This document shows, one piece after another, positions 21,593 to 38,266 of a stretch of DNA of 64,000 nucleotides. The notes below the pieces were generated by a model that was not told the origin of the DNA, did not search any database, and was given only the letters and a program-made list of their open reading frames with translations. Origin of the DNA: Tahibacter aquaticus (GTDB lineage: Bacteria; Pseudomonadota; Gammaproteobacteria; Xanthomonadales; Rhodanobacteraceae); contig NZ_SNZH01000002.1 in assembly GCF_004363655.1 (NCBI RefSeq), forward strand, positions 434,001 to 498,000, in the 5' to 3' direction. The position numbers were made by a program, and so were the translations under genes. How positions within the stretch are numbered: position 1 is the stretch's first letter; each line of letters opens with the position of its first letter.

Positions 21593-22579
21593 ATGCAGTC
21601 CCCCGCACACAGGTCTTCACCCATTGCCCGCTGGTTGCGCTTGACCGCTTCGCTTTCACTGCTGCTGGTGCCGTCACTGGCCGCCGCGACCTTCTCCATC
21701 GTCGCCTGCGACAAGGCCGGCAACTGCGGTGTTGCCGTGGCGACCAACAACCTGGCGGTCGGCGCCAGCGTGCCGTATGCACAAGCGCGCGTCGGCGCAC
21801 TGGTCAGCCAGTTCGAGACGAATCCGAATTACGGCCCCAAGGGACTGGCCTTGCTGTCGGCCGGCAAATCGCCGGAAGCGGCCATCAAGGCCCTGCTCGA
21901 CGGCGACGGCCATTTCGACGGCACAGGCATCGAAGAACGCCAGGTCGCCATCGTCGATGCCAAGGGCCATTCCTTCGCCTATACCGGTACCGATGCGCTG
22001 GCATCGGCCTGGGCCGGCGCGCACCACGACGAAGGCTACTCCGTGCAGGGTAACGGCCTTGCCGGCGAAGCGGTGCTGGCGGCGATGCGCCGTGCGTATC
22101 AATCGACATCCGGCAGCTTGGCCGAGCGGCTGATGGCCGGCCTCGAAGCGGGCCAGGATGCCGGCGGCCAGAGCAGCGGAAAACGCTCGGCCGCCTTGCT
22201 CGTCCGCACGGTCGACGGTGGCTGGCAAGATATCGACTTGCGTATCGATGCGGCTGCCGAACCGATTCCCGATCTGCGCCGATTGCTCGATCAGCACTAC
22301 GCGCATCAAGCCATCATCCGTGCCGAACGCCAGGCCGGCAAAGGCAATCGCGACGAAGCGCGCCTGTCCATCGCCGAGGCATTGCGCCGCAGCCATGGTT
22401 GGGATCGCATCTGGCGCCGCGCGGCGCGCCTGGCCATGAGCATGGACGACAGCGGCCGCGCGTTGGACTACCTCGGTGTATTTCTGTCGCTCAACCCCGC
22501 GTGGGCGCGCCGCGAAATGCAGGACGAGATCTATGCGCCGTTGCGGAGCAATGCGCAGTTCAAAGCGTGGAGCAATTGA
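21593..22579 (+). CDS. DUF1028 family protein (Ntn-hydrolase-like), secreted
   Basis: 328 residues; ATG at 21593 with CAGGAG upstream. A signal peptide (LTASLSLLLVPSLAAA) leads directly into the DUF1028 start ATFSIVACDKAGNCGVAVATNNLAVGASVPYAQARVGALVSQ, which would leave Thr near the mature N-terminus, as in Ntn-type hydrolases. Further family motifs are GPKGLALLSAGKSPEAAIKALLDGD and YSVQGNGLAGEAVLAAM. The C-terminal part (about residue 235 onward) resembles tetratricopeptide helices (DEARLSIAEALRRSHGWDRIWRRAARLAMSMDDSGRALDYLGVFLSLNP). The enzymatic activity of the family is unproven. Confidence 0.85.
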   Translation: MQSPAHRSSPIARWLRLTASLSLLLVPSLAAATFSIVACDKAGNCGVAVATNNLAVGASVPYAQARVGALVSQFETNPNYGPKGLALLSAGKSPEAAIKALLDGDGHFDGTGIEERQVAIVDAKGHSFAYTGTDALASAWAGAHHDEGYSVQGNGLAGEAVLAAMRRAYQSTSGSLAERLMAGLEAGQDAGGQSSGKRSAALLVRTVDGGWQDIDLRIDAAAEPIPDLRRLLDQHYAHQAIIRAERQAGKGNRDEARLSIAEALRRSHGWDRIWRRAARLAMSMDDSGRALDYLGVFLSLNPAWARREMQDEIYAPLRSNAQFKAWSN

Positions 22580-22615: not shown

Positions 22616-22643
22616 GTGACATGGCAGACTCTGCGCATATGTT
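22616..22643 (+). promoter_or_regulatory. possible sigma70 promoter for cas1
   Basis: GTGACA (22616-22621), 16-bp spacer, TATGTT (22638-22643). Transcription would begin near 22650, just ahead of the cas1 ATG at 22666, which agrees with the start chosen by homology. Five of six and four of six matches to consensus. Confidence 0.35.
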
Positions 22644-22665
22644 CCCTTTGTCGCCGGGGCCGCGT

Positions 22666-23646
22666 ATGTCAGACCTGTCGCCGACCGATCTCAAGAGCAT
22701 TCTGCATTCGAAGCGGGCAAACCTCTACTACCTCGAACATTGCCGCGTCCTCGTCAACGGCGGCCGCGTCGAATACGTCACCGACGAGGGCAAGCGTTCG
22801 CTTTACTGGAATATTCCCATTGCCAATACGACGACCCTGCTGCTGGGCACGGGCACCTCGGTCACCCAGGCCGCCATGCGCGAGCTGGCCAAGGCCGGCG
22901 TGCTGGTCGGGTTCTGCGGTGGCGGCGGTACGCCCTTGTTCAGTGCCAACGAGGTCGATTTCGATATCGCGTGGTTTTGTCCACAAAGTGAATACCGGCC
23001 CACGCAGTATCTGCAGGCGTGGGTACGCTTCTGGTTCGACGAACCGTCTCGCTTGGCGGCAGCCAGGGCATTGCAGCAGGCCCGCCTGCAGCGCATCGAA
23101 AAGCACTGGACTACCAGCCGCGAGCTGAAACAGGGCGGTTTCGTTATTGCCGCCGACAGCCTGAACGAACTGCTGCAGCGAAGTCGCGAGGGGATAGAAA
23201 GCGCCGCGGACAATGCGTCTTTGCTGACCGACGAAGCGCGCCTGAGCAAAGCCCTGTTCAAACTATGCGCCCAGGCAACGCGCTACGGCGAGTTCACGCG
23301 TGCCAAGCGCGGCAGCGGTGCCGATCCGGCCAATCGCTTTCTCGACCACGGCAACTACCTGGCCTACGGCCTCGCCGCGAGCGCGTGCTGGGTATTGGGC
23401 CTGCCGCATGGCCTGGCGGTACTGCATGGCAAAACGCGGCGCGGCGGCCTGGTATTCGATGCCGCCGACCTGGTCAAAGACGCCATTATCCTGCCGCAGG
23501 CTTTTCTTTCGGCTGTGCGCGGCGATGACGAGCAGGCCTTCCGCCAGGCGTGCATCGAAGCGCTGACACGTACCGAGTCGCTTGATTTCATGATCGAAAC
23601 GCTACAGCAGATCGCCTTGTCGACGGCCGCGAAAATTTCGCCATGA
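22666..23646 (+). CDS. cas1: type I-F CRISPR-associated Cas1 integrase
   Basis: 326 residues. The frame extends upstream to 22621, but the I-F family starts at MSDLSPTDLKSILHSKRANLYYLEHC, so the ATG at 22666 is used. Metal-binding catalytic residues are in place: E190, H254 (LAVLHGKTRRGG) and D265/D268 (LVFDAADLVKD). Other family stretches are YWNIPIANTTTLLLGTGTSVTQAAMREL and FCGGGGTPLFSANEVD. Cas1 works with the Cas2 domain of the next gene to cut and insert new spacers at the leader end of the array. The stop overlaps the cas2-3 start (ATGA). Confidence 0.97.
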   Translation: MSDLSPTDLKSILHSKRANLYYLEHCRVLVNGGRVEYVTDEGKRSLYWNIPIANTTTLLLGTGTSVTQAAMRELAKAGVLVGFCGGGGTPLFSANEVDFDIAWFCPQSEYRPTQYLQAWVRFWFDEPSRLAAARALQQARLQRIEKHWTTSRELKQGGFVIAADSLNELLQRSREGIESAADNASLLTDEARLSKALFKLCAQATRYGEFTRAKRGSGADPANRFLDHGNYLAYGLAASACWVLGLPHGLAVLHGKTRRGGLVFDAADLVKDAIILPQAFLSAVRGDDEQAFRQACIEALTRTESLDFMIETLQQIALSTAAKISP

Positions 23647-26600
23647 ACATTCTTCTGGTGTCGCAGTGCGACAAGCGTGCGCTGGTCGAAAGCCGCCGCA
23701 TCCTCGACCAGTTTGCCGAGCGCCGCGGCGAGCGTACCTGGCAGACGCCGATTACCCAGGTGGGCCTGGATACCTTGCGCCGCCTGCTGCGCAAGACGGC
23801 GCGCAAGAACACGGCTGTCGCTTGTCACTGGATACGCGGCCTCGACCACAGCGAATTGCTCTGGATCGTCGGCGACGCGAGCCGTTTCAATGCACAGGGC
23901 GCCGTACCCACCGATACGACGACGCGCAACGTGCTGAAGAGCGACAGCGAGAACGACTGGCATACCGGCGAGGACATTCGCCTGATCGCATCGCTGGCAG
24001 CACTGCTGCATGACCTGGGCAAGGCAAGTCAGGCATTTCAGGACCGCCTGTTCGCCAAGGGCGTAGTCGGGCGCAACGACTACCGCCACGAATGGGTCTC
24101 GCTTCGTCTGTTCCAGGCGTTCGTCGGCGATAGCACCGATGCCGAGTGGTTGCAGCGGCTGGTCGAACCCAGCGCCGCCGACGATGCAAGCTGGATCGGC
24201 CGCTTGCAGCGTGACGGCATCGATGCTGTCGATACCAGGCCGTTTTCGACCATGCCCTCGCTGGCACAGGCCGTTGGTTGGCTGGTGCTTACACATCATC
24301 GATTGCCGATGAAGCCGGACAGGGAAAAGCCGCTTTCCGCCCGGCGCTGGGGCGAAAAACTCAAGGCGTTCGGCGATGCCGACAACCTGCTGCTGCAGAT
24401 CGAAGCGGGCTGGAACGAAACACCGGGCAGCAGCGAAAGAAAGAAGATCGAACCCTACTGGGCCTGTGGCCCATTGCCTACGTTGACGCCGCTCTGGCGC
24501 AAGCGTGCGGCGCGCATTGCCCGGCGTCTGCTGGAGCGGCAATCGACGCGGCACAGCCAGGGCTGGCTCGACAACGTTTATGTCATGCACCTGGCTCGCT
24601 TGAGCCTGATGCTGGCCGATCACCACTATTCCAGCCTGCGCGAGCCATCCGTGCGCGTGAAGGGAGAGAAAGACTATCCGCTCTACGCCAACACGGATCG
24701 CCAAAGCGGCCAGCCTTGCCAGCGCCTCGACGAACATCTCCTGGGCGTGGAAAAGCACGCCGGCATCATCGCCAGCGCGCTACCAGAGCTGGCCCGTGCG
24801 CTGCCGCGCCTTGCCCGGCACAAAGGCCTGCGCCGGCGTAGCGACAACGACGCTTTTCGCTGGCAGGACCGGGCCTCGGATACAGCAGCTGCTTTGCGCG
24901 AACGCGCTGCGCGGCAAGGCGCGTTCATCGTCAACATGGCGTCGACGGGTTGCGGCAAGACCTTGGCCAACTTGCGCATCATGAATGCGCTGGCCGATCC
25001 GCAGCACGGCGTGCGCTGTTCCATCGCGCTCGGGTTACGCACGTTGACGCTGCAGACTGGCCAAGCATTGTCGAAACGCCTGGGCCTGTCCGATGACGAA
25101 ATCGCCGTGCGCGTCGGCGGCGCGGCAAATCGCAAGCTACAGCGCTTCTATGCGCGAAGTGCCGAGGCCAGCGGCTCGGCTTCTGTGCAAGGCTTGCTCG
25201 ACGAAGACAGCCGCGTGCTCTACGAAGGCAATATCGATCATCCCGTGCTGGCGCGCACCGTGCACGATGCGCGCGCGCGCGCCTTGCTGGCGGCGCCCGT
25301 CCTGGTCTGCACGGTCGATCATCTAGTGCCGGCGACCGAGAGCTGCCGTGGCGGCCATCAGATCATGCCGATGTTGCGGCTGATGAGCAGCGATCTGATC
25401 CTAGACGAACTGGACGACTACGACGTCGACGATCTGCCCGCGCTGACGCGGCTGGTCTACTGGGCCGGCATGCTCGGCGCACGTCTGTTGCTGTCGTCGG
25501 CGACGTTACCGCCCGCGCTGGTGCAGGGCATGTTTCTCGCCTACCAAGCCGGGCGTCGTTGTTTTCAGGCCAATCGCGGCGAAAGGCCGGGCGAGGCTGC
25601 GCCGGTCTGCTGCGCCTGGTTCGACGAATTTAACCAGCAGACGCAGGACTGCGCGGACGAACACGCCTTCCAGCAACAGCACCAGGGTTTCGCACAGCGG
25701 CGGCAGCAACGGTTGGCCGACGATAGTGTCCGGCGCCGCGCGCGACTGGTCGAACTGCGCCCGGTGGCGACGAAGCGCGAAGAGATACGTCGCGAATTCG
25801 CTGCCTGCGTGCGGCGCGAAGCATTGGCGTTACATGGCCAGCATTGCAGCACCGATCCGCGTAGCGGCAAGCGCGTGAGTTTCGGCGTGGTGCGAATGGC
25901 GAATATCGAGCCGCTGATCGACGTGGCGCGCGAGCTGTATCGGCTCGGTTCCCCGGCCGACTACCAGATTCACCTGTGTGTCTATCACGCGCGCTTTCCA
26001 CTGCTATTGCGCTCGGCGATAGAGCGGCGGCTGGACGCGGCCCTGGACCGGCACGCGGAAAACGCTGTGTTCGAGCTGGCCGCTATTCGACAGGCGATCG
26101 ACGCGCACGCGGCTTCGCATCACCTATTCATCGTGCTGGGCAGTCCGGTGATCGAGGTGGGACGCGACCACTGCTATGACTGGGCCGTAGCCGAGCCGTC
26201 GTCGCTGCGTTCGCTGATCCAGTTGGCGGGCCGCGTACGCCGGCATCGCTCCGGTGCCTGTGTCAGTCCGAACATTGCCCTGCTCAGCACCAATCTGAAG
26301 CACCTGGAAAACCCTAGCGCCATCGCATTCTGCCGGCCTGGCTTCGAGCAGGACGACGAGCGATTCAAGCTGCATTCGCACCAGCTCGGCGATCTGCTGG
26401 GCGAACTGCTGGACCCGGACGGGCAAAGCATCATCGATGCACGGCCACGCATCGCCGAGCCGGAGCCGTTGCTGGCGCAACACCGTCTCAGCGATCTGGA
26501 GCACGCGCGCCTGCGTCACACGATGCTACCGCCGGCCGTCGTGAAGCCGTCGCGCCGGGAGATGGCCGCCGGCTATGCGCAGCTGCCGCGCGAACTCAAT

Positions 26601-27008
26601 GCCAGCAGCATCTGGGACAGGCCCGGTATGCACCTGACCGGTGCGCTGCCGCAGCAGCAGCCGTTTCGCCTGAGTGCACCCGATATCGAGCTGGTGCTGA
26701 TGCCCAACGACGAGGGCGACGACTACGCGATCTACGAAATCCGCGACGGTGGCCAGGTGATCGGCGGGCGCCGTGGCGAGGCGGTGTATGTGCTGTGCGA
26801 GAGGAACCTCGTTCCCGAGGCAGAGGTTGTCGGCGAGGGCATCTGCGCGTGGGGCAGGGATGACTATCTGGAACTACTGACCGAAGTTGCCGCGGCCTGG
26901 GACATGCCACTGAGCGAATGCGCGCTGCAGCTGGGCCAGGTGAGTGTACGGCCGAGCGAGCGGGGGTGGTGGTTTCATCCGGTGTTGGGGGTTTTCAGGC
27001 GCCGGTGA
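23643..27008 (+). CDS. cas3: Cas2-Cas3 fusion helicase-nuclease, type I-F
   Basis: 1121 residues. The N-terminal about 95 residues are a Cas2 domain (MNILLVSQCDKRALVESRRI), the hallmark fusion of type I-F. An HD nuclease follows, with H107, H123-D124 in LLHDLGKA, H149 and H218-H219. The superfamily 2 helicase has Walker A at about 433-440 (ASTGCGKT), DExx-like LILDELDDYD at about 585-594 and the C-terminal SPVIEVGRDHCYDWAV/AGRVRRH motifs. It has a double role: with Cas1 in spacer integration, and recruited by the Csy complex to unwind and degrade target DNA. All key motifs are intact, so the system looks functional. The gene ends 461 bases before csy1, much longer than other gaps in the locus. 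Confidence 0.97.
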   Translation: MNILLVSQCDKRALVESRRILDQFAERRGERTWQTPITQVGLDTLRRLLRKTARKNTAVACHWIRGLDHSELLWIVGDASRFNAQGAVPTDTTTRNVLKSDSENDWHTGEDIRLIASLAALLHDLGKASQAFQDRLFAKGVVGRNDYRHEWVSLRLFQAFVGDSTDAEWLQRLVEPSAADDASWIGRLQRDGIDAVDTRPFSTMPSLAQAVGWLVLTHHRLPMKPDREKPLSARRWGEKLKAFGDADNLLLQIEAGWNETPGSSERKKIEPYWACGPLPTLTPLWRKRAARIARRLLERQSTRHSQGWLDNVYVMHLARLSLMLADHHYSSLREPSVRVKGEKDYPLYANTDRQSGQPCQRLDEHLLGVEKHAGIIASALPELARALPRLARHKGLRRRSDNDAFRWQDRASDTAAALRERAARQGAFIVNMASTGCGKTLANLRIMNALADPQHGVRCSIALGLRTLTLQTGQALSKRLGLSDDEIAVRVGGAANRKLQRFYARSAEASGSASVQGLLDEDSRVLYEGNIDHPVLARTVHDARARALLAAPVLVCTVDHLVPATESCRGGHQIMPMLRLMSSDLILDELDDYDVDDLPALTRLVYWAGMLGARLLLSSATLPPALVQGMFLAYQAGRRCFQANRGERPGEAAPVCCAWFDEFNQQTQDCADEHAFQQQHQGFAQRRQQRLADDSVRRRARLVELRPVATKREEIRREFAACVRREALALHGQHCSTDPRSGKRVSFGVVRMANIEPLIDVARELYRLGSPADYQIHLCVYHARFPLLLRSAIERRLDAALDRHAENAVFELAAIRQAIDAHAASHHLFIVLGSPVIEVGRDHCYDWAVAEPSSLRSLIQLAGRVRRHRSGACVSPNIALLSTNLKHLENPSAIAFCRPGFEQDDERFKLHSHQLGDLLGELLDPDGQSIIDARPRIAEPEPLLAQHRLSDLEHARLRHTMLPPAVVKPSRREMAAGYAQLPRELNASSIWDRPGMHLTGALPQQQPFRLSAPDIELVLMPNDEGDDYAIYEIRDGGQVIGGRRGEAVYVLCERNLVPEAEVVGEGICAWGRDDYLELLTEVAAAWDMPLSECALQLGQVSVRPSERGWWFHPVLGVFRRR

Positions 27009-27019
27009 ATTGGCGCCTG
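26996..27019. terminator. 8-bp hairpin over the cas2-3 stop codon
   Basis: CAGGCGCC (26996-27003) pairs with GGCGCCTG (27012-27019) around an 8-base loop. No T-run follows in either direction. It may weakly separate the cas1-cas3 transcript from csy1 and also mark the 3-prime end of the minus-strand mini-array transcript. Confidence 0.35.
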
Positions 27020-27020
27020 G

Positions 27021-27048
27021 AGACCCTACTGCCTGTGCGGCAGTTTAA
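27021..27048 (-). repeat. degenerate I-F repeat 2 (reverse orientation)
   Basis: About 16 of 28 positions match; the hairpin core (CTGCC, loop GCACA, GGCAG) is intact while both flanks have diverged. Confidence 0.65.
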
Positions 27049-27068
27049 GTTGATCGTGCCGAAGTAGT

Positions 27069-27096
27069 TTTCTGAGCTGCCTATCCGGCAGTGAGC
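27069..27096 (-). repeat. degenerate I-F repeat 1 (reverse orientation)
   Basis: Differs from the array consensus only at repeat positions 2 (T to C), 12 (C to G) and 13 (G to A); the last two are in the loop. Confidence 0.9.
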
Positions 27097-27182
27097 ATGA
27101 AACTGGCTTGGCAGCAGATCGAGAGCGCGAACCGATTGTTAGAAACACACGTTCCGGGGCGCGCCAGGGCATTGTAGCGGAT

Positions 27183-27218
27183 AAGTGCCGACGTAGTGGA
27201 AAGTGCCGACGTAGTGGA
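27183..27218. repeat. exact 18-bp tandem repeat carrying two guide-matched target sites
   Basis: Units 27183-27200 and 27201-27218 are identical (AAGTGCCGACGTAGTGGA). On the minus strand each contains CC followed by ACTACGTCGGCAC, matching the first 13 nt of the mini-array spacer (ACTACTTCGGCAC) at every position except 6. CC is the known type I-F PAM and lies on the correct side. The second unit ends two bases before the -35 box of the csy1-facing promoter. Proposed operators for Csy-complex binding. Confidence 0.75.
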
Positions 27219-27219
27219 T

Positions 27220-27247
27220 TTGACAAGCACCTGTGACAGCCTATACT
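27220..27247 (+). promoter_or_regulatory. near-consensus sigma70 promoter facing csy1
   Basis: TTGACA (27220-27225), 16-bp spacer, TATACT (27242-27247); predicted start near 27254. It is the only clear promoter between cas2-3 and csy1. Its -35 box directly abuts the tandem guide-matched sites, so a bound Csy complex would block RNA polymerase. Confidence 0.8.
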
Positions 27248-27253
27248 CGGCGC

Positions 27254-27281
27254 ACCCTCGGGTGGGCAAACACCCGAGGGT
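27254..27281 (+). promoter_or_regulatory. 5-prime leader hairpin of the csy-side transcript
   Basis: Perfect 11-bp stem (ACCCTCGGGTG / CACCCGAGGGT) with GGCAAA loop, placed at the predicted transcription start. No T-run follows, so it more likely stabilises or structures the 5-prime end than terminates. Confidence 0.55.
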
Positions 27282-27349
27282 ATTTCGCAAACATCAACGC
27301 TTCGCGGCGTGAGCCCAACTGCAGGGTTTCGTTGCATACAGGAGGCTGT

Positions 27350-27388
27350 GTGATTAGCTATCGCACGCTCAGGAGAGCATTTCGATGA
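27350..27388 (+). CDS. candidate 12-codon mini-ORF with AGG-AGA pair (CreT-like)
   Basis: GTG at 27350 after AGGAGG (27340-27345) encodes MISYRTLRRAFR and stops at 27386-27388. Codons 8 and 9 are AGG-AGA, both rare in a genome this GC-rich. Its stop overlaps a second start (ATG AAC TAG at 27385-27393) that has its own AGGAG (27371-27375), formed by the same AGG-AGA stretch. The arrangement recalls CreT toxin RNAs of CRISPR-associated CreTA modules, where a short ORF with strong ribosome site and consecutive rare arginine codons ties up a scarce tRNA. The spacing to the GTG is short (4 nt). No experimental or homology evidence. Confidence 0.35.
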   Translation: MISYRTLRRAFR

Positions 27389-27408
27389 ACTAGGCGAACA
27401 GCCGGAAT

Positions 27409-27430
27409 CCCCGGAGTACAGACTCCGGGG
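27409..27430 (+). terminator. 9-bp hairpin between mini-ORF and csy1 (attenuator or terminator)
   Basis: CCCCGGAGT / ACTCCGGGG with ACAG loop, followed by AATTCTACGTTTT: a GC-rich stem with only a short delayed T-run, so termination would be partial. GGGAATTC (27428-27435) overlaps its 3-prime arm and is complementary to GAATTCCC (27462-27469), the csy1 ribosome-site region, allowing an alternative fold. Confidence 0.5.
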
Positions 27431-27469
27431 AATTCTACGTTTTCAGCAAGCTGACGACTAGGAATTCCC

Positions 27470-28819
27470 ATGATCGATCAACCCGACAGTACTCGACGTG
27501 CTGCGTTTCGTGCCGCCATCGAACGGTTCCTGCAAGAACGCCGCGACGCCAAGCTCGAAAAACTGCCCGAAGACGCTCAAAACCGCGAAGCACTGCTGGC
27601 CCAGTTCCAGGCGGCCAGCTGGATCGAAGACGCCGCACGGCGTGTCAGCCAGATCCAGGCCGTAACCCACTCCCTCAAAGCCATCCACCCGGATGCACGC
27701 GGCACCAACCTCTACTGTCCGCCGGCGCTATTGCCCGGTCATGCCGAATTGGGCAGTCATGTACTCGGTGGCGATTTCGCCGGCGACGTTGTCGGCAATG
27801 CTGCCGCGCTGGATGTATACAAATTCCTGCGTCTGCAGGCCAACGGCATGACCTTGCTCGATGCGCTGCTGGCCGACGATCCCGATCTGCTGGCCGCTTT
27901 CAGCAGCGATCCCGACCAGGCCGGCGCCTGGTGCAAGGCCTTCGCCAATCTGGTGCAGCCACGTGGTGAACTGGCCTCGCATACCCATGCCAAGCAGGTC
28001 TACTGGCTGGTCGACGAGATGCCAACCGAAGACAGCGCCTACCATTTGCTGGCGCCGCTCTACGCATCGTCGCTCACCCAGCGTGTGCATACGACCATCA
28101 ACGACGATCGCTTCAGCGATGCGGCAAAAGCCGCCCGCGAAGCGCGGCGGGAAAAACGCGATCATCCGGCTGGCTTTGCGGAATATCCCCATCTGGCCGT
28201 GCAGAAGCTCGGTGGTACCAAGCCGCAGAACATCAGCCAGCTCAATAGCGAGCGTGGCGGCGCGAACTACCTGCTGGCTTCATTGCCGCCGCAGTGGAAA
28301 TCGAAAGTTCGTCCGCCGTTGAATATCGATTCGGTATTCAGCCGGTTCGGTGCGCGCGACCTCGTGCACACATTGGTGGCGGAACTGCGCGAGTTTCTCG
28401 AAGGCGATCCCACCAGCATCAAGCCGACGCGGGATTTTCGCGAAGACCTGTTCGACCGCCTCGTCGATGAACTGGCCTGGTTCGCCAGCGAACTCCACGA
28501 TGCGCTGAGCCCAGGCTGGAGTACTGCACCTGCCTGTCAGCTGCCCATGGCCGAACAACTCTGGCTCGACCCCGGCCGCGCTACCCACGACGACGAGTTC
28601 CATCGCCACTGGCAACGGCTGGACTGGCCCGAGGAAATCGGCCGCAGCTTCGGCTACTGGCTCAACAGCGAGCTGAAGGGCCGCCTGCCCGTTGGCCTGG
28701 TCGAGCTGCGCGAGTGGGCCAAGGAACTGCTGGGCGACGAAATCTGGATGGCGCACCTGAAGAACCTGGGCCGCCAGATGGCGCGAGACCGACGTGCCGC
28801 CAAAGGAGATGCCGCATGA
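27470..28819 (+). CDS. csy1: Csy1 (Cas8f), large subunit of the type I-F Csy complex
   Basis: 449 residues; ATG at 27470 with TAGGA ten bases upstream, a site that may be masked by upstream RNA. The family is recognisable from the N-terminal helical part (RRAAFRAAIERFLQERRDAKLEKL), HPDARGTNLYC, the central VGNAAALDVYKFL, THAKQVYWLVDE and VQKLGGTKPQNISQLNSERGGANYLL. Csy1 pairs with Csy2 at the crRNA handle end and recognises the CC PAM on target DNA. The gene begins a tightly packed csy1-csy2-csy3-cas6f run; its stop overlaps csy2 (ATGA). Confidence 0.97.
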   Translation: MIDQPDSTRRAAFRAAIERFLQERRDAKLEKLPEDAQNREALLAQFQAASWIEDAARRVSQIQAVTHSLKAIHPDARGTNLYCPPALLPGHAELGSHVLGGDFAGDVVGNAAALDVYKFLRLQANGMTLLDALLADDPDLLAAFSSDPDQAGAWCKAFANLVQPRGELASHTHAKQVYWLVDEMPTEDSAYHLLAPLYASSLTQRVHTTINDDRFSDAAKAAREARREKRDHPAGFAEYPHLAVQKLGGTKPQNISQLNSERGGANYLLASLPPQWKSKVRPPLNIDSVFSRFGARDLVHTLVAELREFLEGDPTSIKPTRDFREDLFDRLVDELAWFASELHDALSPGWSTAPACQLPMAEQLWLDPGRATHDDEFHRHWQRLDWPEEIGRSFGYWLNSELKGRLPVGLVELREWAKELLGDEIWMAHLKNLGRQMARDRRAAKGDAA

Positions 28820-29817
28820 GCGATACCTTGGCCGAAAGCAGGGGCCTGCTGATCCTGCCGCGCCTGCGGGTACAGAACGCCAACGCCATTTCCAGCCCAT
28901 TCACTCACGGCTTTCCTGCCATCACCGCCTTTCTCGGGCTGATGTGGGCGCTGGAGCGAAAACTGGCTGGGCGCTATCCGCTGTTCTTCACCGGTGTCGG
29001 TGTGATCTGCCATCACCACGAGGAACAGGTTGCCACCGCTGGCTTCACACGCGCATTCCGGCTTACCCGCAACCCGATCGACAAGGACGGTAGCACCGCC
29101 GCCATCGTCGAGGAGGGTCGTATACATCTGGACATTACGCTGGTGTTCGGCGTCAGCGGCACGGTGCTCGAAGCGGATTGGGCTATTCGCCGCGAATGTG
29201 CCGATCAGGTAGCCGCAGAGCTTGCACAGATGCGTATCGCTGGCGGCACGGTATTGCCCGGCGCAGCGGCAGGAATTCATGCCACAAGGCCGCACCTCGA
29301 AGCTTTTCCGGACGCCGCCAACGACCGGCCGAAATGGTTCAGCAACTTGCGCCGGCGCTGGCTGCCCGGCTTTGCCCTGGTCGCGCGCGACGACCTGCTG
29401 GCCGACAGGCTGGCGCAGTTGCGTAGGAAAGATGCGACCGCGACAACGCTGGATGCATGGCTGGATCTGGTGCGTCTCAACTGCATGCCACCACCGCAGG
29501 ACGAGACCGCGGCGACCGAGAAGAAAACATCTGCCGTCGAGTGGATCTACGAAAAGAAGCCTGGCTGGATAGTGCCGATTCCGGTCGGCTACGGTGCGCT
29601 GACACCGCTGCAGACTGCCGGCAGCGTGCGCAACGCGCGCGATGCGACAACACCGTTCCGTTTCGTCGAAAGCCTTTACTCCATCGGCCAGTGGATAGCG
29701 CCGCATCGGCTCGATTCCTGGCGTCAATTGCTCTGGTACGGACATAGCGACATCGAGACAGGCCGCTATCGCGCCTGCAACGACTACATCGCTGCCACGT
29801 CCACTCATCCGCACTGA
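28816..29817 (+). CDS. csy2: Csy2 (Cas5f), type I-F Csy complex
   Basis: 333 residues; start overlaps the csy1 stop, with AAGGAG upstream. Typical Csy2 start GLLILPRLRVQNANAISSPFTHGFPAITAFLGLMWALERKL and the glycine-rich GVGVICHHHEEQV segment are present, as is the C-terminal YSIGQWIAPHRLDSWRQLLWYG. It is a RAMP-type protein that binds the 8-nt 5-prime handle of crRNA and forms the tail of the Csy complex with Csy1. Length is normal and no defects are seen. Confidence 0.97.
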   Translation: MSDTLAESRGLLILPRLRVQNANAISSPFTHGFPAITAFLGLMWALERKLAGRYPLFFTGVGVICHHHEEQVATAGFTRAFRLTRNPIDKDGSTAAIVEEGRIHLDITLVFGVSGTVLEADWAIRRECADQVAAELAQMRIAGGTVLPGAAAGIHATRPHLEAFPDAANDRPKWFSNLRRRWLPGFALVARDDLLADRLAQLRRKDATATTLDAWLDLVRLNCMPPPQDETAATEKKTSAVEWIYEKKPGWIVPIPVGYGALTPLQTAGSVRNARDATTPFRFVESLYSIGQWIAPHRLDSWRQLLWYGHSDIETGRYRACNDYIAATSTHPH

Positions 29818-29834: not shown

Positions 29835-30875
29835 ATGTCCGATACCGCCATCAAGACCGCATCCGTGCTCGCCTTCGAACGCAAGCTCGATCCGTCCGAC
29901 GCACTGTTTCACTCGGCAAGCTGGGCCAGCCGGAACGACGAAGCCACGTGCAAGCCGATAGCTATCCGCACGAAATCCGTGCGTGGCACCATTTCCAATC
30001 GCCTGAAAACCAAAGAACAGGATCCGGCCAAACTCGACGCTATGGTTGAAAAACCCAATCTGCAGACGGTCGACGTTGCGGCACTGCCCGGCGATGCCGA
30101 TACCCTGTGCGTCAGCTTTACCTTGCGCGTGCTGGCCGGCACCGGCAAGCCATCCGCCTGCAACGACGCGGCGTATCAGCAACGCCTGCTGCAGACCGTC
30201 GACGGCTATATCAAGGCCAATGGCTTTGGCGAACTGGCGCGTCGCTACGCCGGCAATCTGGCCAACGGCCGCTTTCTTTGGCGCAACCGCATCGGTGCCG
30301 AACAGGTCGAGATTCGCATCGACCATCTGGTCGATGGCAAGGCGGCAAAAAGCTGGACCTTCGCCGACGCCTTGTCGCTGTCGCTACGCAACTTCGATGC
30401 CACCGGGGACGATCTGAAGGCCATCGCCGAAATCGGCACGCTGATCGCAGAAGGTCTGAACGGCGATCGTCACGTGCTGCTGCGCATCCGGGCCTGCGTG
30501 CGCATCGGTGTCGGCCAGGAAGTATTTCCTTCGCAGGAGTTGATCCTCGACGACCGCGCCAAAGGCAACAAGAGCAAGACGCTCTATGCCGTCAACGATA
30601 TTGCCGGCATCCACTCGCAGAAAATCGGCAATGCCTTGCGCACCATCGATACCTGGTATCCGGAGCAGGGCGATCTCGGACCCATCGCCGTGGAGCCCTA
30701 CGGTTCCGTGACGACACTGGGCAAGGCCTATCGCAAACCCAAGAAAGACGGCGGCGCCGACTTCTATTCGCTGCTGGACAACTGGGTGCTCAAGGGCAAG
30801 GCACCAGGTGCGGGTGACCAGCACTACGTGATTGCCGTACTCGTTCGTGGCGGTGTATTCGGCGAAGGGGGTTGA
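29835..30875 (+). CDS. csy3: Csy3 (Cas7f), backbone subunit of the Csy complex
   Basis: 346 residues; GAGGAG precedes the ATG. Csy3 signature at the N-terminus (SVLAFERKLDPSDALFHSASW) and AIRTKSVRGTISNRLK, plus GNLANGRFLWRNRIGAEQVEIRI and EPYGSVTTLGKAYRKP. Six copies assemble along the guide; each thumb flips out every sixth guide base, so mismatches at positions 6, 12, 18 and so on are tolerated. That known property bears directly on the mini-array target match (mismatch at position 6). Confidence 0.97.
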   Translation: MSDTAIKTASVLAFERKLDPSDALFHSASWASRNDEATCKPIAIRTKSVRGTISNRLKTKEQDPAKLDAMVEKPNLQTVDVAALPGDADTLCVSFTLRVLAGTGKPSACNDAAYQQRLLQTVDGYIKANGFGELARRYAGNLANGRFLWRNRIGAEQVEIRIDHLVDGKAAKSWTFADALSLSLRNFDATGDDLKAIAEIGTLIAEGLNGDRHVLLRIRACVRIGVGQEVFPSQELILDDRAKGNKSKTLYAVNDIAGIHSQKIGNALRTIDTWYPEQGDLGPIAVEPYGSVTTLGKAYRKPKKDGGADFYSLLDNWVLKGKAPGAGDQHYVIAVLVRGGVFGEGG

Positions 30876-30876
30876 G

Positions 30877-31461
30877 ATGGACCATTATCTCGACCTGATG
30901 CTACGCCCCGATCCCGAGATTGCCGCCAACGTGCTGCTGGGTGCGTTGTACAGCAAACTTCACCGCGCACTGGCGTACTTGCAGCGCGACGATATTGGCG
31001 TGAGCTTTCCGTCTGTGGACAACGCGCGCAATGGCCTGGGCACCACCTTGCGCATTCACGGCACTACGCACGCAGTGCATGCGTTGCAGGCAACGGCATG
31101 GCTGAACACCATGCGCGATCACGTTGCCAATAGCGACCTACAGGCAGTGCCGGAATCGTGCCGCTACCGTGGCGTAAGACGCGTACAAGCCAAGAGCAAT
31201 CCCGAACGCCTGCGTCGCCGCCTGATGAAGCGCCACGGCATCGATGCCGCCGCCGCCGCCGAACGAATTCCCGATACCGCGCGGGAAACCCTCGACCTGC
31301 CGTTCATCCGCCTTGCCAGCGCCAGCACGGGGCAGCCATTCCTGATCTTCATCGACCACGGTCCATTGCAGGACAAAGCCACTCACGGACGCTTCAACAG
31401 CTATGGGCTTGGCCAGGGGGCGACCATTCCCTGGTTTCGACCCTTTTTCTCGGACCGCTGA
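30877..31461 (+). CDS. cas6f: Cas6f (Csy4), crRNA-processing endoribonuclease
   Basis: 194 residues; the ATG is one base after the csy3 stop. N-terminus MDHYLDLMLRPDPE is canonical. Catalytic H29 (KLHRAL) and S148 (LASASTGQ) align with the characterised Pseudomonas enzyme, as do the repeat-contacting R102 and Q104 and the arginine-rich helix AKSNPERLRRRLMKRH. It cuts each repeat after G20, at the base of the CTGCC/GGCAG hairpin, leaving an 8-nt handle, and stays bound to the 3-prime hairpin. Directly followed by the leader and array. Confidence 0.97.
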   Translation: MDHYLDLMLRPDPEIAANVLLGALYSKLHRALAYLQRDDIGVSFPSVDNARNGLGTTLRIHGTTHAVHALQATAWLNTMRDHVANSDLQAVPESCRYRGVRRVQAKSNPERLRRRLMKRHGIDAAAAAERIPDTARETLDLPFIRLASASTGQPFLIFIDHGPLQDKATHGRFNSYGLGQGATIPWFRPFFSDR

Positions 31462-31569: not shown

Positions 31570-34500
31570 GTTCACTGCCGCGTAGGCAGCTCAGAAATCG
31601 GATCGACGGGGCGGCAGCAGGCCATGACCGTTCACTGCCGCGTAGGCAGCTCAGAAATGTTCCGATTGCGGATGTTTCGATTACGGATTGTTCACTGCCG
31701 CGTAGGCAGCTCAGAAAAGACCACGGACGACCTCAGCAACATCGTGGACGTTCACTGCCGCGTAGGCAGCTCAGAAAATTCCAAGGTCGATAACGAGTCT
31801 TTCCAGGGCGTTCACTGCCGCGTAGGCAGCTCAGAAAACCGCCGCCAACGCTGCGCGGGCGAACGCCAGGTTCACTGCCGCGTAGGCAGCTCAGAAAAAT
31901 GGGACCGGTGCCGGAACGTGCCTTTGCCGGTTCACTGCCGCGTAGGCAGCTCAGAAAAGGTCGTGAACGCACCAGCGCCGGCAAGCACGGTTCACTGCCG
32001 CGTAGGCAGCTCAGAAAACGTTGCCGAGCGTCGCATGGTAGAAGTCCGTGTTCACTGCCGCGTAGGCAGCTCAGAAATACGGCCGACAATTCGGCTTGCA
32101 CCGCATCGAGTTCACTGCCGCGTAGGCAGCTCAGAAATTTATCTCGATCCGGCTCGCGTGTTACTTCGGGTTCACTGCCGCGTAGGCAGCTCAGAAATGG
32201 GATGGCGGCCGGGATAGCCGCCCTTTTCATGTTCACTGCCGCGTAGGCAGCTCAGAAAATCTGCGTGGGACACACCGGGCCGGAAGTGAAGTTCACTGCC
32301 GCGTAGGCAGCTCAGAAATCAATGCGATACGCGCTGCTGATCCTCCTAAGGTTCACTGCCGCGTAGGCAGCTCAGAAAGGACTGCGCCCAGCCACCGCCG
32401 AACGATGCATGTTCACTGCCGCGTAGGCAGCTCAGAAATGTCTCAGATTCCGCGCCGACGCAATCGTCGGGTTCACTGCCGCGTAGGCAGCTCAGAAAAC
32501 TCTTGGTGACGTTGACGCCCGAGGCCTCAGGTTCACTGCCGCGTAGGCAGCTCAGAAAGCGCCTCGTCGCGCTCGCGCATGTAGCTTTCGGTTCACTGCC
32601 GCGTAGGCAGCTCAGAAAATTACGAGTGGAACGCTCTGGCCGGACTGAGCGTTCACTGCCGCGTAGGCAGCTCAGAAAATACGCCAGCCAGTAGCCGGCA
32701 GCGCACAGCAGTTCACTGCCGCGTAGGCAGCTCAGAAACAATCGAGCCAGCGCCCGAGACTGACCAGCAGGTTCACTGCCGCGTAGGCAGCTCAGAAATT
32801 TGCTTAACCGCACGGTCGCCGTGCTTGCGAGTTCACTGCCGCGTAGGCAGCTCAGAAACGTACTGGTCCCGCGCCCACGGCACGTACGTCGTTCACTGCC
32901 GCGTAGGCAGCTCAGAAAGACGACGGTTCACAGGGGCCGCCGGCACAAGGGTTCACTGCCGCGTAGGCAGCTCAGAAAGCCAGGATCTGGACACGCCGCG
33001 CCACATTGCCGTTCACTGCCGCGTAGGCAGCTCAGAAAAGCATCTGCCCGATACCCGGCGCGTCTTTGAAGTTCACTGCCGCGTAGGCAGCTCAGAAAAG
33101 CCAACGGATCATGGGACAGGCTCCAGCTGCGTTCACTGCCGCGTAGGCAGCTCAGAAAGTACATGGCGAATTGCAAGAGCGGGTACCCTGGTTCACTGCC
33201 GCGTAGGCAGCTCAGAAATGCGAACACAGCCCACACGAACCCGTGCCGCGGTTCACTGCCGCGTAGGCAGCTCAGAAATCGACGAGATCCTGCGCCGCTT
33301 CCCGCATCAGGTTCACTGCCGCGTAGGCAGCTCAGAAATGTCGGCGTGCATTGGCACGCGTGTGTTCATGGTTCACTGCCGCGTAGGCAGCTCAGAAAAC
33401 ATCATAGTTACGCCAGCGGAAGCACGGTCTGTTCACTGCCGCGTAGGCAGCTCAGAAAATTCAGCCATGCGAGCTGCAAATTCTGCTTCGGTTCACTGCC
33501 GCGTAGGCAGCTCAGAAATGGTGACCGACCTGGCCGACAACAGCGACGAAGTTCACTGCCGCGTAGGCAACTCAGAAAACGTCAACGCCCAATGCGGCGG
33601 ACGCTCCCAAGTTCACTGCCGCGTAGGCAGCTCAGAAAATGAACCGCTGCATTAGCCCGTCCTCGGGCAGGTTCACTGCCGCGTAGGCAGCTCAGAAATT
33701 ATGGATGAGTAGGCCGGACTGGATCTTGTCGTTCACTGCCGCGTAGGCAGCTCAGAAAATGAAACCGCACCTGCATCGCGTCAACTTCGGGTTCACTGCC
33801 GCGTAGGCAGCTCAGAAAACGACGGATAAAGACGGGAGGCGTTATTGGTGGTTCACTGCCGCGTAGGCAGCTCAGAAAAGGGACGGTCAGTGTCAGCGCC
33901 GGGCCGACGGGTTCACTGCCGCGTAGGCAGCTCAGAAAATTCGTTCTGCGGCAGATTGCCGGGCTTAAGAGTTCACTGCCGCGTAGGCAGCTCAGAAAAC
34001 CTCGCCTGTATCGCCGGGCTCTCCGGGCGGGTTCACTGCCGCGTAGGCAGCTCAGAAAATATCGCGTCCGTCACCGGTGGCAGTTGATGCGTTCACTGCC
34101 GCGTAGGCAGCTCAGAAAACTGCCTGCGGGAGCACCACAGACCGCCCTGTGTTCACTGCCGCGTAGGCAGCTCAGAAAGAAAGGGCCAGGTAGAACGCGT
34201 CGGAAAACTGGTTCACTGCCGCGTAGGCAGCTCAGAAAGATGCGGTCTACGGCGACGCCACCGACACGTGGTTCACTGCCGCGTAGGCAGCTCAGAAATG
34301 GCCGCGATGAATCTGGTATCGCGTACGCAGGTTCACTGCCGCGTAGGCAGCTCAGAAAGACAGGAAGGCCGCCCATGGCTGACATGACCGGTTCACTGCC
34401 GCGTAGGCAGCTCAGAAAAGCCCGGTTTCCTGGGCTTGGCTGGAGGTCAGGGTTCACTGCCGCGTAGGCAGCTCAGAAACGTCACGCCGCCGAATCGAAG

Positions 34501-37500
34501 TGCTGGGACGCGTTCACTGCCGCGTAGGCAGCTCAGAAATCGTACAGGCTACCAACCAAGGCCAGGCCATCGTTCACTGCCGCGTAGGCAGCTCAGAAAA
34601 TGGGTTAGTAGCGCCCGCGTCGCCGCGCTAGGTTCACTGCCGCGTAGGCAGCTCAGAAAGTTTGTGTAACCGTTTCGGTAACGGTTCCGGCGTTCACTGC
34701 CGCGTAGGCAGCTCAGAAACGCTGCGTAGCTGGGCGGCCACAGCGCTTGAAGTTCACTGCCGCGTAGGCAGCTCAGAAAATGTATCGCAGGCCAAGGCAG
34801 ATGAAGCGCTCGTTCACTGCCGCGTAGGCAGCTCAGAAAATCCCGGCGCACGAGATTCAGATACGGGTGTTGTTCACTGCCGCGTAGGCAGCTCAGAAAT
34901 AGCTACCACGGAGTTCAGCGAATGAGCACGAGTTCACTGCCGCGTAGGCAGCTCAGAAAATTTGCTGGGGCGACCGCCGAGATTCATGCGCGTTCACTGC
35001 CGCGTAGGCAGCTCAGAAAACGTCCCAGCGCGGGCAGACCACGGGGTATTCGTTCACTGCCGCGTAGGCAGCTCAGAAATACAATTTCCTTTGGCACGAA
35101 TCTCTCCGTCTGTTCACTGCCGCGTAGGCAGCTCAGAAAGGCATCGTGACAGAAGCGCGGAAGGGGCTGGAGTTCACTGCCGCGTAGGCAGCTCAGAAAA
35201 TACGCGATCACGCGGGCAGGCGGACGCATCGGTTCACTGCCGCGTAGGCAGCTCAGAAAACGCCGAGCCTGGCTGTCGGCGCACACACCATGTTCACTGC
35301 CGCGTAGGCAGCTCAGAAATGAAACGGGATGAAGTAGCAGCGATTATCCGCGTTCACTGCCGCGTAGGCAGCTCAGAAAGCCGCGCAATGTCGGTAAAGT
35401 GGAAACAGACGGTTCACTGCCGCGTAGGCAGCTCAGAAAACTGAAAAAACTCATTGATGCGGGGAGCGGTAGTTCACTGCCGCGTAGGCAGCTCAGAAAT
35501 TTCTGTTCGGACCAACGAAGCTGGCGTGTTGGTTCACTGCCGCGTAGGCAGCTCAGAAACTCGGCCGGCGGGCTGCTGAACTCGATGAACGGTTCACTGC
35601 CGCGTAGGCAGCTCAGAAACATTCGTCCCACTCAAGACGGCCTTTCGTGACGTTCACTGCCGCGTAGGCAGCTCAGAAAAGGTAGTTCGGCCGGTACTTG
35701 GCGTAATCCTCGTTCACTGCCGCGTAGGCAGCTCAGAAAAGGCCGGTTCGTACCGCTACGCCGCTACCGTCGTTCACTGCCGCGTAGGCAGCTCAGAAAA
35801 ATCCTTGCCGCCAGCATTGCTCAGTGAGTCCGTTCACTGCCGCGTAGGCAGCTCAGAAATGACCCGGCTGAACTCCGAGCAGCTCGATCCGAGTTCACTG
35901 CCGCGTAGGCAGCTCAGAAATATTCCACAGGCGAGCAAGCCCTTTAGCCGGCGTTCACTGCCGCGTAGGCAGCTCAGAAATCGAACTTCGCGCGGTGCCG
36001 CTCGATGATGTTGTTCACTGCCGCGTAGGCAGCTCAGAAAACTCGAAACCCGTCTACGCGCGTTGTCCCGGCGTTCACTGCCGCGTAGGCAGCTCAGAAA
36101 ATGAAATCGGCATGCGGCTCGCCCTGCTCGTTGTTCACTGCCGCGTAGGCAGCTCAGAAAACGTAGCTCTGCGGCGCTTCCGTGATGCTGTCGTTCACTG
36201 CCGCGTAGGCAGCTCAGAAAGTCCAAACTCGCCGCGGCGCTTCCCCCGTCCGGTTCACTGCCGCGTAGGCAGCTCAGAAATTGCTGTCCGTCGGCGCCAT
36301 GATCCAGTCGTGGTTCACTGCCGCGTAGGCAGCTCAGAAACCGAATACGAGTGGATCCACAAGCGGTCGCCGGTTCACTGCCGCGTAGGCAGCTCAGAAA
36401 ATGCCAGGCGTGCCGTTGGAATAGCTGACCAGGTTCACTGCCGCGTAGGCAGCTCAGAAATGACTCCACCGTTATGACGGCTTTTATCGTCTGTTCACTG
36501 CCGCGTAGGCAGGCAGCTCAGAAATGCAGATGGCGGTTGGCTTCGCGCGGGATCTGGTTCACTGCCGCGTAGGCAGCTCAGAAATGGCCGGGCTGAGTGC
36601 AACGCAGATTCAGTACGTTCACTGCCGCGTAGGCAGCTCAGAAAATTACGCGAACGCCCTGCGCAACCTCCGCACGGTTCACTGCCGCGTAGGCAGCTCA
36701 GAAAAGCATCCGGGCTATCTGTGCGGGAGGGGCTGAGTTCACTGCCGCGTAGGCAGCTCAGAAATGGTCGGCGTTGCAGGGGGAGGGTGATGGACAGTTC
36801 ACTGCCGCGTAGGCAGCTCAGAAAAAGCAGCTTCTTCCTCGCTGCTAAGAATCCCGGTTCACTGCCGCGTAGGCAGCTCAGAAAACGGGCACGGTTGCAC
36901 ACCGGCGCCACGAGGAGTTCACTGCCGCGTAGGCAGCTCAGAAATCAGCCGGTTCCGGAGCAGGCGGCTTTGGGAGGTTCACTGCCGCGTAGGCAGCTCA
37001 GAAATCGGTGACGGAGTTCGGAAAGCCGGCGTCCGAGTTCACTGCCGCGTAGGCAGCTCAGAAACGATCCGCCTAGGCGTGAAGGCGTGGTTTGCCGGTT
37101 CACTGCCGCGTAGGCAGCTCAGAAATACAAACAGGAAATCGAATTCAATCCGCAAGGGTTCACTGCCGCGTAGGCAGCTCAGAAAAGGTCCAGCGCATGC
37201 AGGCGGGACATCTCGCGGTTCACTGCCGCGTAGGCAGCTCAGAAATTGTCGATCTGCGCATCGAGCGCCGCAATGTCGTTCACTGCCGCGTAGGCAGCTC
37301 AGAAACGCTCGCGACGCGGGTACAGGTCGGCGAAGGTGTTCACTGCCGCGTAGGCAGCTCAGAAAAAGGAAGTGCTCTGTGGCCGCCGCTGAACTCAGTT
37401 CACTGCCGCGTAGGCAGCTCAGAAAATTCCGAGAGCCAAACCTTGCGGGCGCGTAGTGTTCACTGCCGCGTAGGCAGCTCAGAAAAACGATCAGCTGCTG

Positions 37501-38266
37501 ATGCGGCAGCTGGGCGGTTCACTGCCGCGTAGGCAGCTCAGAAATCGCGCGGGTCGAACTTGTCGTTGGTCTTGCGGTTCACTGCCGCGTAGGCAGCTCA
37601 GAAATCCCTCAACCCATCGCATAGCGGAGTTTCGAGGTTCACTGCCGCGTAGGCAGCTCAGAAAATCTGCGATGCACTCGCGATCACGCCGTCGACGTTC
37701 ACTGCCGCGTAGGCAGCTCAGAAAGTGCCGAATGTTCGCGCCGACGAGTTCCGCGCCGTTCACTGCCGCGTAGGCAGCTCAGAAAAGAACCAGTTCCGCG
37801 CCATCACGGCGCCCTGGGGTTCACTGCCGCGTAGGCAGCTCAGAAATCCGTCACTTTGACGCGGATGCAGCGGTAGCCGTTCACTGCCGCGTAGGCAGCT
37901 CAGAAAAACGACCTCACCATCAACATGGCCAATCGTGCGTTCACTGCCGCGTAGGCAGCTCAGAAAATCAGGCCGAACTCAGGAGCGGCCTGCACCTGGT
38001 TCACTGCCGCGTAGGCAGCTCAGAAATCTGTGATCAGCGCAAGATCGCGCTGGCTGGTGTTCACTGCCGCGTAGGCAGCTCAGAAATCAGCGCAGGCCAT
38101 GGCCGGCGTGAAGTACTGGTTCACTGCCGCGTAGGCAGATCAGAAAAGCGAGATCATCAACCGCACGCACTACGACTTGTTCACTGCCGCGTAGGCAGCT
38201 CAGAAATCCCCACACACTCCCGCGCCTCGTCGCGCTGCATTCACTGCCGCGCAGGCAGCCCAGAAA
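31570..38266 (+). CRISPR. type I-F CRISPR array, 112 repeats and 111 spacers
   Basis: 28-bp repeats begin GTTCACTGCC, loop GCGTA, then GGCAG and end CTCAGAAA. Counted by start positions: 31570-32170 (11), 32231-34391 (37), 34452-35832 (24), 35893-36493 (11), 36557-37037 (9), 37098-37458 (7), 37517-37697 (4), 37758 (1), 37819-38239 (8). Spacers are 32 nt except 33 nt after the repeats at 32170, 34391, 35832, 37037, 37697 and 37758, and 31 nt after 37458. Variant repeats: 33551 (G20A), 36493 (4-nt duplication), 38119 (C21A), 38239 (G1A, T14C, T22C). Almost all other repeats look identical, which suggests an active array. Spacer origins were not searched. Confidence 0.99.

Follow-up and report, generated by a model that had tools for sequence, protein, structure and literature searches.

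A putative CRISPR-regulated toxin-antitoxin module of type I-F, with a doubled operator, in the cas3-csy1 gap of Tahibacter aquaticus

The subject of this work is a short intergenic segment in a 64,000-nucleotide stretch of the Tahibacter aquaticus genome (the window; positions are counted from its first letter), which separates cas3 and csy1 in a type I-F locus of clustered regularly interspaced short palindromic repeats (CRISPR) consisting of cas1, cas3f, csy1-4 and an array of 28-bp repeats. Our analysis suggests, with a probability that we would put at about two in three, that this gap holds a type I-F CreTA module, that is, a CRISPR-regulated toxin-antitoxin pair, with a toxin resembling the tRNA-sequestering CreT of archaea. 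Read along the sequence, the gap offers guide-target pairing with periodic mismatches, a protospacer-adjacent motif (PAM), a promoter-like site, a Shine-Dalgarno sequence, a hairpin and tandem rare codons. Judging from this arrangement, it is very likely that the guide of a mini-array switches off the neighbouring promoter of a small growth-stopping RNA. The coordinates of all elements are collected in Table 1.

An original prediction, made from the letters of the window, held that two exact 18-bp tandem units are each matched by the beginning of the guide at 12 of 13 positions with a mismatch at position 6, and that both have the CC PAM on the correct side; the units are present as described, and CC flanks both minus-strand sites. 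The promoter-proximal site adjoins the -35 box, as was also proposed: its PAM (GG on the plus strand, 27216-27217) lies 2 bp from the TTGACA of the promoter, and 26950-27500 yielded no sigma-70-like site besides this one. The idea that the match ends at 13 nucleotides proved correct for the outer site (12/20 over the whole guide) and wrong for the promoter-proximal one, where guide positions 16, 17, 19 and 20 match as well (16/20). With one mismatch allowed, both sites are the only guide matches in the window, against a mean of 0.01 matches in 100 shuffles, none of which contained two; with position 6 left as N, the 7.27-Mb genome has no match besides them, and the reversed-pattern control gave 0. 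A guide partly matching a PAM-flanked site at a putative toxin promoter, one of the features of CreTA, is present here. Both operators are probably not occupied at once, because the site starts lie 18 bp apart, which is less than the 22 bp of PAM plus guide. A second target matched at 11 or more of 13 positions was found in the window only, that is, in 1 of 56 accepted guide-target pairs.

Another CreTA feature, a gene of a guide similar to CRISPR RNA (crRNA) with degenerate repeats beside cas genes, is also present, on the minus strand. Its first repeat-like sequence, PsiR1, is recognised by the Rfam model CRISPR-DR4 with 36.1 bits (gathering score 35, E 1.7e-6), and it is the sole reverse-strand copy of the repeat in the window at 18/28 or better; the second, PsiR2, gives a partial match to CRISPR-DR4 of 18.3 bits, under the gathering score. 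A promoter scan of 26950-27500 found no creA promoter on the minus strand.

A strong argument comes from relatives of csy1. The best 80 of 276 confirmed relatives were combined with loci from overlapping samples of 147, 369 and 398 genomes, and after removal of L004 (same contig as L014), L084 (ordinary array upstream of csy1), L094 (a duplicate) and L181 (a 32% fragment) 129 loci were retained. Array detection required an I-F-like hairpin and handle, which misses arrays with other repeats, and the detection rules were chosen while looking at the data. There were 58 mini-arrays upstream of csy1 in 57 of the 129 loci, all antisense to csy1, and 57 usable guides were left once the 12-nucleotide spacer of L169 had been dropped as too short. 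A CC-PAM target within 1.3 kb was found for 56 of the 57 guides at 11/17 or better and for 54 at 12/17 or better, whereas comparing each guide with other loci gave 667 and 122 such cases in 7,296 comparisons. When CC was swapped for any other dinucleotide, only 0-3 guides reached 12/17, against 54 for CC. The single guide without an accepted target belongs to a farther array of L055. The loci are related, and some are close kin (L052 and L060, for instance, have guide and target in common, and further pairs share csy1 120-mers), and all p-values given here are indicative only. Independent drift of spacer and target among relatives would have spoken against the original prediction; what we observe is co-retention of guide and target across the family (54/57 versus 122/7,296). 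RNA-guided binding by the Csy complex is, in our opinion, well supported by these sequence comparisons, and the preference for CC, together with the mismatch pattern, agrees with the proposal that the sites are guide-matched Csy operators.

In 55 distinct guide-target pairs positions 1-5 were mismatched in 2 of 275 cases, position 6 in 47/55, position 12 in 43/55 and position 18 in 37/51; pooled, positions 6, 12 and 18 were mismatched in 127/161 and the remaining positions within 1-17 in 72/818. A mismatch rate of about 75% is the expectation for free positions, and therefore every sixth guide base appears not to be read by the Csy complex. It is known that Cas7f complexes flip out bases, and this fits the rhythm; tolerance of the position-6 mismatch, suggested earlier for the window alone, looks like a rule of the family. 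The lengths of the 57 guides, which depend on the assumed start of the second repeat, peak at 20 (6 guides), 26 (13 guides) and 31 nucleotides (5 guides), with a further 7 guides at 24; the steps of about 6 would fit the omission of entire Cas7 units.

Accepted targets on the minus strand number 54, and 39 of them have a promoter-like site of at least 8/12 in the 100 nucleotides around the PAM, compared to 146 of 1,777 control stretches. For 16 of the 54 the -35 box starts 2-5 nucleotides after the PAM start, as in the window. By the distance between target and csy1 the loci fall into two groups, 17 with the target within 140 nucleotides and 39 with a longer leader. The 17 short-leader loci (L035, L045, L050 and L067 are examples), which lack a mini-ORF (open reading frame, ORF), are candidates for I-F cas autorepression.

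Downstream of the target the window has, by anatomy and conservation, what is expected of a CreTA toxin gene, namely a small RNA with strong translation signals. The predicted leader RNA is strongly structured (z -6.5), and its mini-ORF shares with the tRNA-sequestering CreT both consecutive rare codons, here AGG-AGA, and a stem-loop downstream. Among the 2,784 codons of the six cas genes, by which we measured rarity, AGA occurs 2 times (joint rarest) and AGG 12 times (tenth rarest); the genes for tRNA-Arg(UCU) and tRNA-Arg(CCU) are single-copy, as are nearly all tRNA genes of this genome, which makes gene number uninformative. A mini-ORF led by a Shine-Dalgarno sequence and containing tandem rare codons (AGA/AGG, ATA or TTA) follows the target in 22 of the 39 long-leader loci, the tandem occupying codons 8-9 in 21 of them and codons 6-7 in one; the types are AGA-AGA in 13, ATA-ATA in 5, TTA-TTA in 2, AGG-AGA in the window and AGA-AGG in 1. 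Of 3,024 control windows, which were taken from csy1 onwards and are mostly coding DNA, 4 contained such an ORF, and the 420 nucleotides before csy1 contained it in 23 of 129 loci in sense and in 0 of 129 in antisense orientation. Three loci (L026, L075, L087) have the tandem-codon mini-ORF and no accepted array. None of the 17 short-leader loci has it, and Fisher's test for long versus short leaders gives 4.4e-5, a value indicative at best in view of kinship and of the little room in the short arm. The TTA-TTA at codons 8-9 of L051 and L097 points to a possible leucine-tRNA specificity, which is not described in the available parts of the literature consulted. An Rfam scan of the leader gave no convincing family, only two weak matches far under their gathering scores. 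Apart from this pattern, the second mini-array of L055 (about -346 to -100 before csy1) is followed by a Shine-Dalgarno-led ORF consisting of ATG TAA, perhaps another trap for initiating ribosomes; a start-stop ORF in L106, 6 nucleotides before the csy1 match, was discarded.

The second conserved element of the leader is a hairpin holding the start codon. The hairpin described for the I-F CreT of Acinetobacter, with TTAGC at loop nucleotides 5-9 and four core pairs, is present in the window; the UUAGC of the Acinetobacter toxin is deduced from its codons 2 and 3, TTT AGC (PMC10097628). A codon-blind search for a start codon led by a Shine-Dalgarno sequence, with pairs 1-15, 2-14, 3-13 and 4-12 and YYRGY at loop nucleotides 5-9, found this hairpin in the 420 nucleotides before csy1 in 16 of 129 gaps in sense, 0 of 129 in antisense and none of 1,938 control windows, and tandem rare codons accompany it in 14 of the 16 loci (L102 and L169 being without). 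In a 117-locus version, with L055 and L099 scanned over 700 nucleotides and the rest over 420, it was found in 16/117, 15 of the 16 with tandem codons. Covariation was assessed in 21 ungapped mini-ORFs, the one with codons at 6-7 being excluded and the best-pairing start taken where several were possible: the stem scored 0.489 against 0.258 for shuffles (0 of 500 as high) and at most 0.226 for slid versions, with 24 double-changed cells against 11.0 in shuffles. The outermost stem pair tested is not conserved. The version in L102 (-113) has five codons, GTG TTT GGC AAG CAC TAA, with the start-codon hairpin and no rare codons, and stands near the Acinetobacter form.

From the analysis above and by analogy with Acinetobacter, the following cycle may be proposed. 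The putative creA, a degenerate two-repeat mini-array on the minus strand, would be cut by Csy4 to a crRNA-like RNA with a 20-nucleotide guide, and the Csy complex carrying it would bind one of the two CC-PAM sites beside the -35 box and block the promoter. Recognition would rely mostly on pairs 1-5 and 7-11, every sixth base being free to mismatch, and the match is probably too short for Cas3 cutting. Were Csy lost or inhibited, the 27220 promoter would open, and the short RNA would load ribosomes strongly at the hairpin-held start codon; these would stall at AGG-AGA, codons 8-9, rare arginine tRNA would be tied up, and growth would stop, as suggested by archaeal CreT with tandem AGA or AUA codons. 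Under this scheme the cell would therefore depend on its Csy complex. Stalling at codons 8-9 might favour peptidyl-tRNA drop-off, a process known in early elongation (PMC10192219), and read-through into csy1-4 may add autoregulation. For the window itself we infer transcription, binding, toxicity and tRNA capture, and we would further suppose a joint action of hairpin and codons, an effect of AGG-AGA equal to that of AGA-AGA, and a higher occupancy owing to the doubled operator.

A number of observations weigh against this interpretation. Tandem codons are missing in 17 of the 39 long-leader loci; four of these (L023, L032, L063, L093) have two different codons at 8-9, at least one of them uncommon, and the other 13 have nothing by the rule. 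The pattern was counted in the set where it was discovered, with 19 of 27 long-leader loci there and 3 of 12 among loci read later; from this difference it follows that the tandem-codon pattern is commonest nearer the csy1 lineage of the window. The control windows, being mostly coding DNA, weaken the mini-ORF contrast, and the comparison of short and long leaders proves little, since the space between target and csy1 in the former is only 16-135 nucleotides and the mini-ORF, where present, starts 102-164 nucleotides past the target, so that most short-leader loci have no room for it. The window has AGG-AGA instead of AGA-AGA, and a GTG start, and AGG is merely tenth in rarity; a strict AGA-AGA genome pattern matched 0 of 369 genomes, an uninformative null as this pattern excludes AGG-AGA. 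Two counts in the stem do not rise above shuffling, namely 4 double-changed pairs (4.5 in shuffles) and 15 further pair types (13.9 in shuffles). The 3' hairpin lacks a canonical U-tract and no terminator-like site was found between the 27220 promoter and csy1 in the scan of 26950-27500, therefore the RNA may run into csy1. Finally, synonymous changes in the Acinetobacter toxin are reported to abolish toxicity only at codons 2, 3 and 5, with codons 8-9 apparently not needed (PMC10097628), and the CreT of Citrobacter type I-E is without rare codons (PMC12055562).

Some of these points would suit autorepression of the CreR type, in which the guide limits csy1-4 expression and the structured leader and mini-ORF are incidental. 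Apart from the 27220 promoter no sigma-70-like site was found in the gap, and no terminator-like site before csy1; the 17 of 56 accepted relatives with a near target and no such mini-ORF have the look expected of CreR; CreR is described for types I-B, I-E and V-A (cited in PMC13131331, PMC12737573), and deletion of the creTA gap of Haloarcula cut cas8 transcription by 91% (PMC9458426). Yet this explanation leaves unaccounted for the Shine-Dalgarno sequence with a rare-codon tandem at codons 8-9 that 21 of the 39 long-leader loci have (one more at 6-7), and in the window a toxin-like element coupled to the guide stands between promoter and csy1, unlike CreR. In L099 a hairpin, a DUF2188 gene and a second, U-rich hairpin stand between the toxin-like unit and csy1; in L055 a further mini-array, seen by eye, follows the unit, which lies away from csy1; and Tahibacter harae, whose csy1 is 72% identical, has a gap of 191 bp with neither guide nor targets nor promoter, in which the second repeat and a decayed mini-ORF survive only as remnants, and frames matching csy1-4 in size and order stay open. 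These three cases favour a stand-alone unit over a csy leader, and we regard pure autorepression as unlikely. Of the earlier idea of Csy-guided repression of the csy operon, the guide-matched operator stands, and autorepression as the purpose of the guide is less likely because of the toxin-like element; as a by-product it is possible, since the scan of the intergenic region turned up no second sigma-70-like site.

Such a by-product leads to a combined arrangement, overlapping the toxin-antitoxin interpretation, in which toxin RNA and csy mRNA start from a single promoter, the latter by read-through, the guide being antitoxin and autorepressor together. The lone promoter-like site, with no terminator found, speaks for it, as does the Haloarcula creTA gap promoter, which serves the downstream cas genes (PMC9458426); on the other hand cas1-cas3-csy may be read from upstream, and T. 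harae has open csy frames, as far as frames alone tell, with no promoter, and we would give this arrangement somewhat less than even chances. Attenuation by a leader peptide, where stalling at the rare codons refolds the leader and alters csy1 transcription or translation, the guide setting the amount of leader, is suggested by tandem codons in a short leader ORF with a GC-rich hairpin before csy1, a known habit of amino-acid operon leaders; it is improbable, as the 3' hairpin stands alone in the single predicted fold examined, has no U-tract, and the unit is away from csy1 in L099 and L055. That everything is chance resemblance or a functionless relic might be argued from the module decay in T. 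harae and from the support coming from sequence; the expectation by chance of 0.01 per window, the family-wide co-retention and the presence in the window of promoter-like site, Shine-Dalgarno sequence, hairpin and both repeats make it very improbable. The CreTA module remains our preferred explanation.

Table 1. Elements of the type I-F locus and of the putative creTA module in the window
Element	Position	Strand	Basis or remark
two identical 18-bp tandem units (27183-27200, 27201-27218) carrying operators	27183..27218	.	repeat search
outer target, CC PAM + 13 nucleotides	27185..27199	-	12/13 matched, mismatch position 6
promoter-proximal target, CC PAM + 13 nucleotides	27203..27217	-	12/13 matched, mismatch position 6; 16/20 over whole guide
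promoter TTGACA-16-TATACT, putatively repressed by the Csy-creA complex	27220..27247	+	11/12; predicted function
creA guide, 20 nucleotides	27049..27068	-	between two repeat-like sequences
PsiR1, first repeat-like sequence, supplies 5' handle	27069..27096	-	25/28 identical to array repeat
PsiR2, second repeat-like sequence	27021..27048	-	Csy4-type hairpin retained, 5'-handle part gone
perfect 11-bp hairpin at predicted transcript 5' end	27254..27281	+	fold prediction
Shine-Dalgarno AGGAGG of mini-ORF	27340..27345	+	sequence
start-codon hairpin, GTG in 5' arm, UUAGC nucleotides 5-9 in loop	27348..27366	+	covariation over relatives
creT-like mini-ORF, 12 codons + stop: GTG ATT AGC TAT CGC ACG CTC AGG AGA GCA TTT CGA TGA	27350..27388	+	
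tandem rare Arg codons AGG-AGA, codons 8-9	27371..27376	+	
GC-rich 3' hairpin past mini-ORF	27406..27434	+	no canonical U-tract
cas1f	22621..23646	+	TIGR03637
cas3f	23643..27008	+	TIGR02562
csy1 (cas8f)	27470..28819	+	TIGR02564
csy2 (cas5f)	28816..29817	+	TIGR02565
csy3 (cas7f)	29835..30875	+	TIGR02566
csy4 (cas6f)	30877..31461	+	TIGR02563
canonical I-F CRISPR array	31570..38266	+	111 repeats + one with 4-nucleotide insertion

Cas1f, Cas3f and Csy1-4 all score above the NCBIfam cut-offs. One repeat of the main array (36493-36524) has a 4-nucleotide insertion (GGCAGGCAG) and is skipped by strict counting. The neighbours encode a beta-lactamase-family protein (PF00144; 38338-39759, minus strand), an isochorismatase-domain protein and a DUF1028 protein (19876-20412 and 21482-22576, both on the plus strand).

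What appears new here is an I-F CreTA that, by its sequence, joins the start-codon hairpin of Acinetobacter with the rare-codon cassette of archaea, under a doubled operator peculiar to the window; in the literature searched, with supplements and most subscription papers outside the search, no earlier account of tandem rare codons in an I-F CreT from bacteria was found. We would even suggest, with odds only slightly better than even, that many Pseudomonadota I-F loci carry one CreT family, in which a YYRGY start-codon hairpin is combined with a swappable tandem rare-codon cassette (Arg AGA, Ile ATA, Leu TTA) at codons 8-9 and guarded by a creA guide in a 5+1 rhythm. If so, csy1-upstream mini-arrays resembling cas8 autorepressors would often be antitoxins, and the leucine (TTA) form would add a third tRNA specificity to the two archaeal ones; tRNA capture, shown so far, in the sources available, for two archaeal CreTs, would be widespread in bacterial I-F systems. 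CRISPR-guarded RNA toxins account for the retention of costly immune systems and for the effects of a block by anti-CRISPR proteins. The comparison of loci also separates candidates for I-F cas autorepression, with the target at csy1 and without a mini-ORF, from putative toxin guards, with a long leader and a mini-ORF, and the apparent tolerance of the Csy complex at every sixth base becomes visible in natural guide-target pairs.

Among known systems, regulatory mini-arrays beside cas genes with partial promoter matches were reportedly catalogued by Shmakov et al. in 2023, who are said to have tested one I-F1 case and to have read such arrays mostly as cas8 promoter control. CreR (Liu 2023, cited in PMC13131331 and PMC12737573) likewise relies on the guide of a mini-CRISPR that matches, to a limited extent, a promoter next to cas genes, and differs in repressing cas genes, in the types named above, and in having no toxin element. 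The I-E CreTA of Citrobacter rodentium (PMC12055562) is similar in lying between cas3 and the first Cascade gene, with a guide on the opposite strand and the target at the upstream edge of the promoter, and differs by a 96-bp ORF whose translation is required. Closer in its proposed action is the I-B CreTA of haloarchaea (Haloarcula hispanica, Halobacterium hubeiense; PMC8501985), where toxins with an AGA-AGA or AUA-AUA mini-ORF and a downstream stem-loop have been shown to sequester rare tRNAs and are repressed by Cascade guided through a partial match; they share with the window two consecutive rare codons, the UGA stop and the downstream stem-loop, and differ in being archaeal and of type I-B, with ORFs of 4 or 6 codons, in the H. 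hubeiense toxin without a Shine-Dalgarno sequence, and in a start-codon hairpin not being mentioned in the available text.

The closest relative is the I-F CreTA of Acinetobacter sp. WCHA45 (PMC10097628), for which processing by Csy4 and Csy-guided repression without Cas3 are described, the geometry of the start-codon hairpin was shown to be necessary by mutation, and the mode of action of the toxin is left open, with rRNA contact proposed. Its single target lies downstream of the promoter, unlike the two tandem targets upstream of the -35 box in the window, and the codons reported as key are 2, 3 and 5, the rare arginine codons at 8-9 being a feature of the window. The guide tested in Acinetobacter has mismatches at 6, 11 and 18, in broad agreement with the 6/12/18 rhythm of the family, the third one falling at 11 and the one at 18 being shared with our guide. 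Both systems have the cas3-csy1 gap, a divergent two-repeat creA, a 20-nucleotide guide, a CC PAM and a mismatch at position 6, a Shine-Dalgarno sequence with a mini-ORF of comparable size (39 bp in the window and 33 bp in Acinetobacter), and a hairpin of equal pairing geometry whose stem holds the start codon, with UUAGC at nucleotides 5-9.
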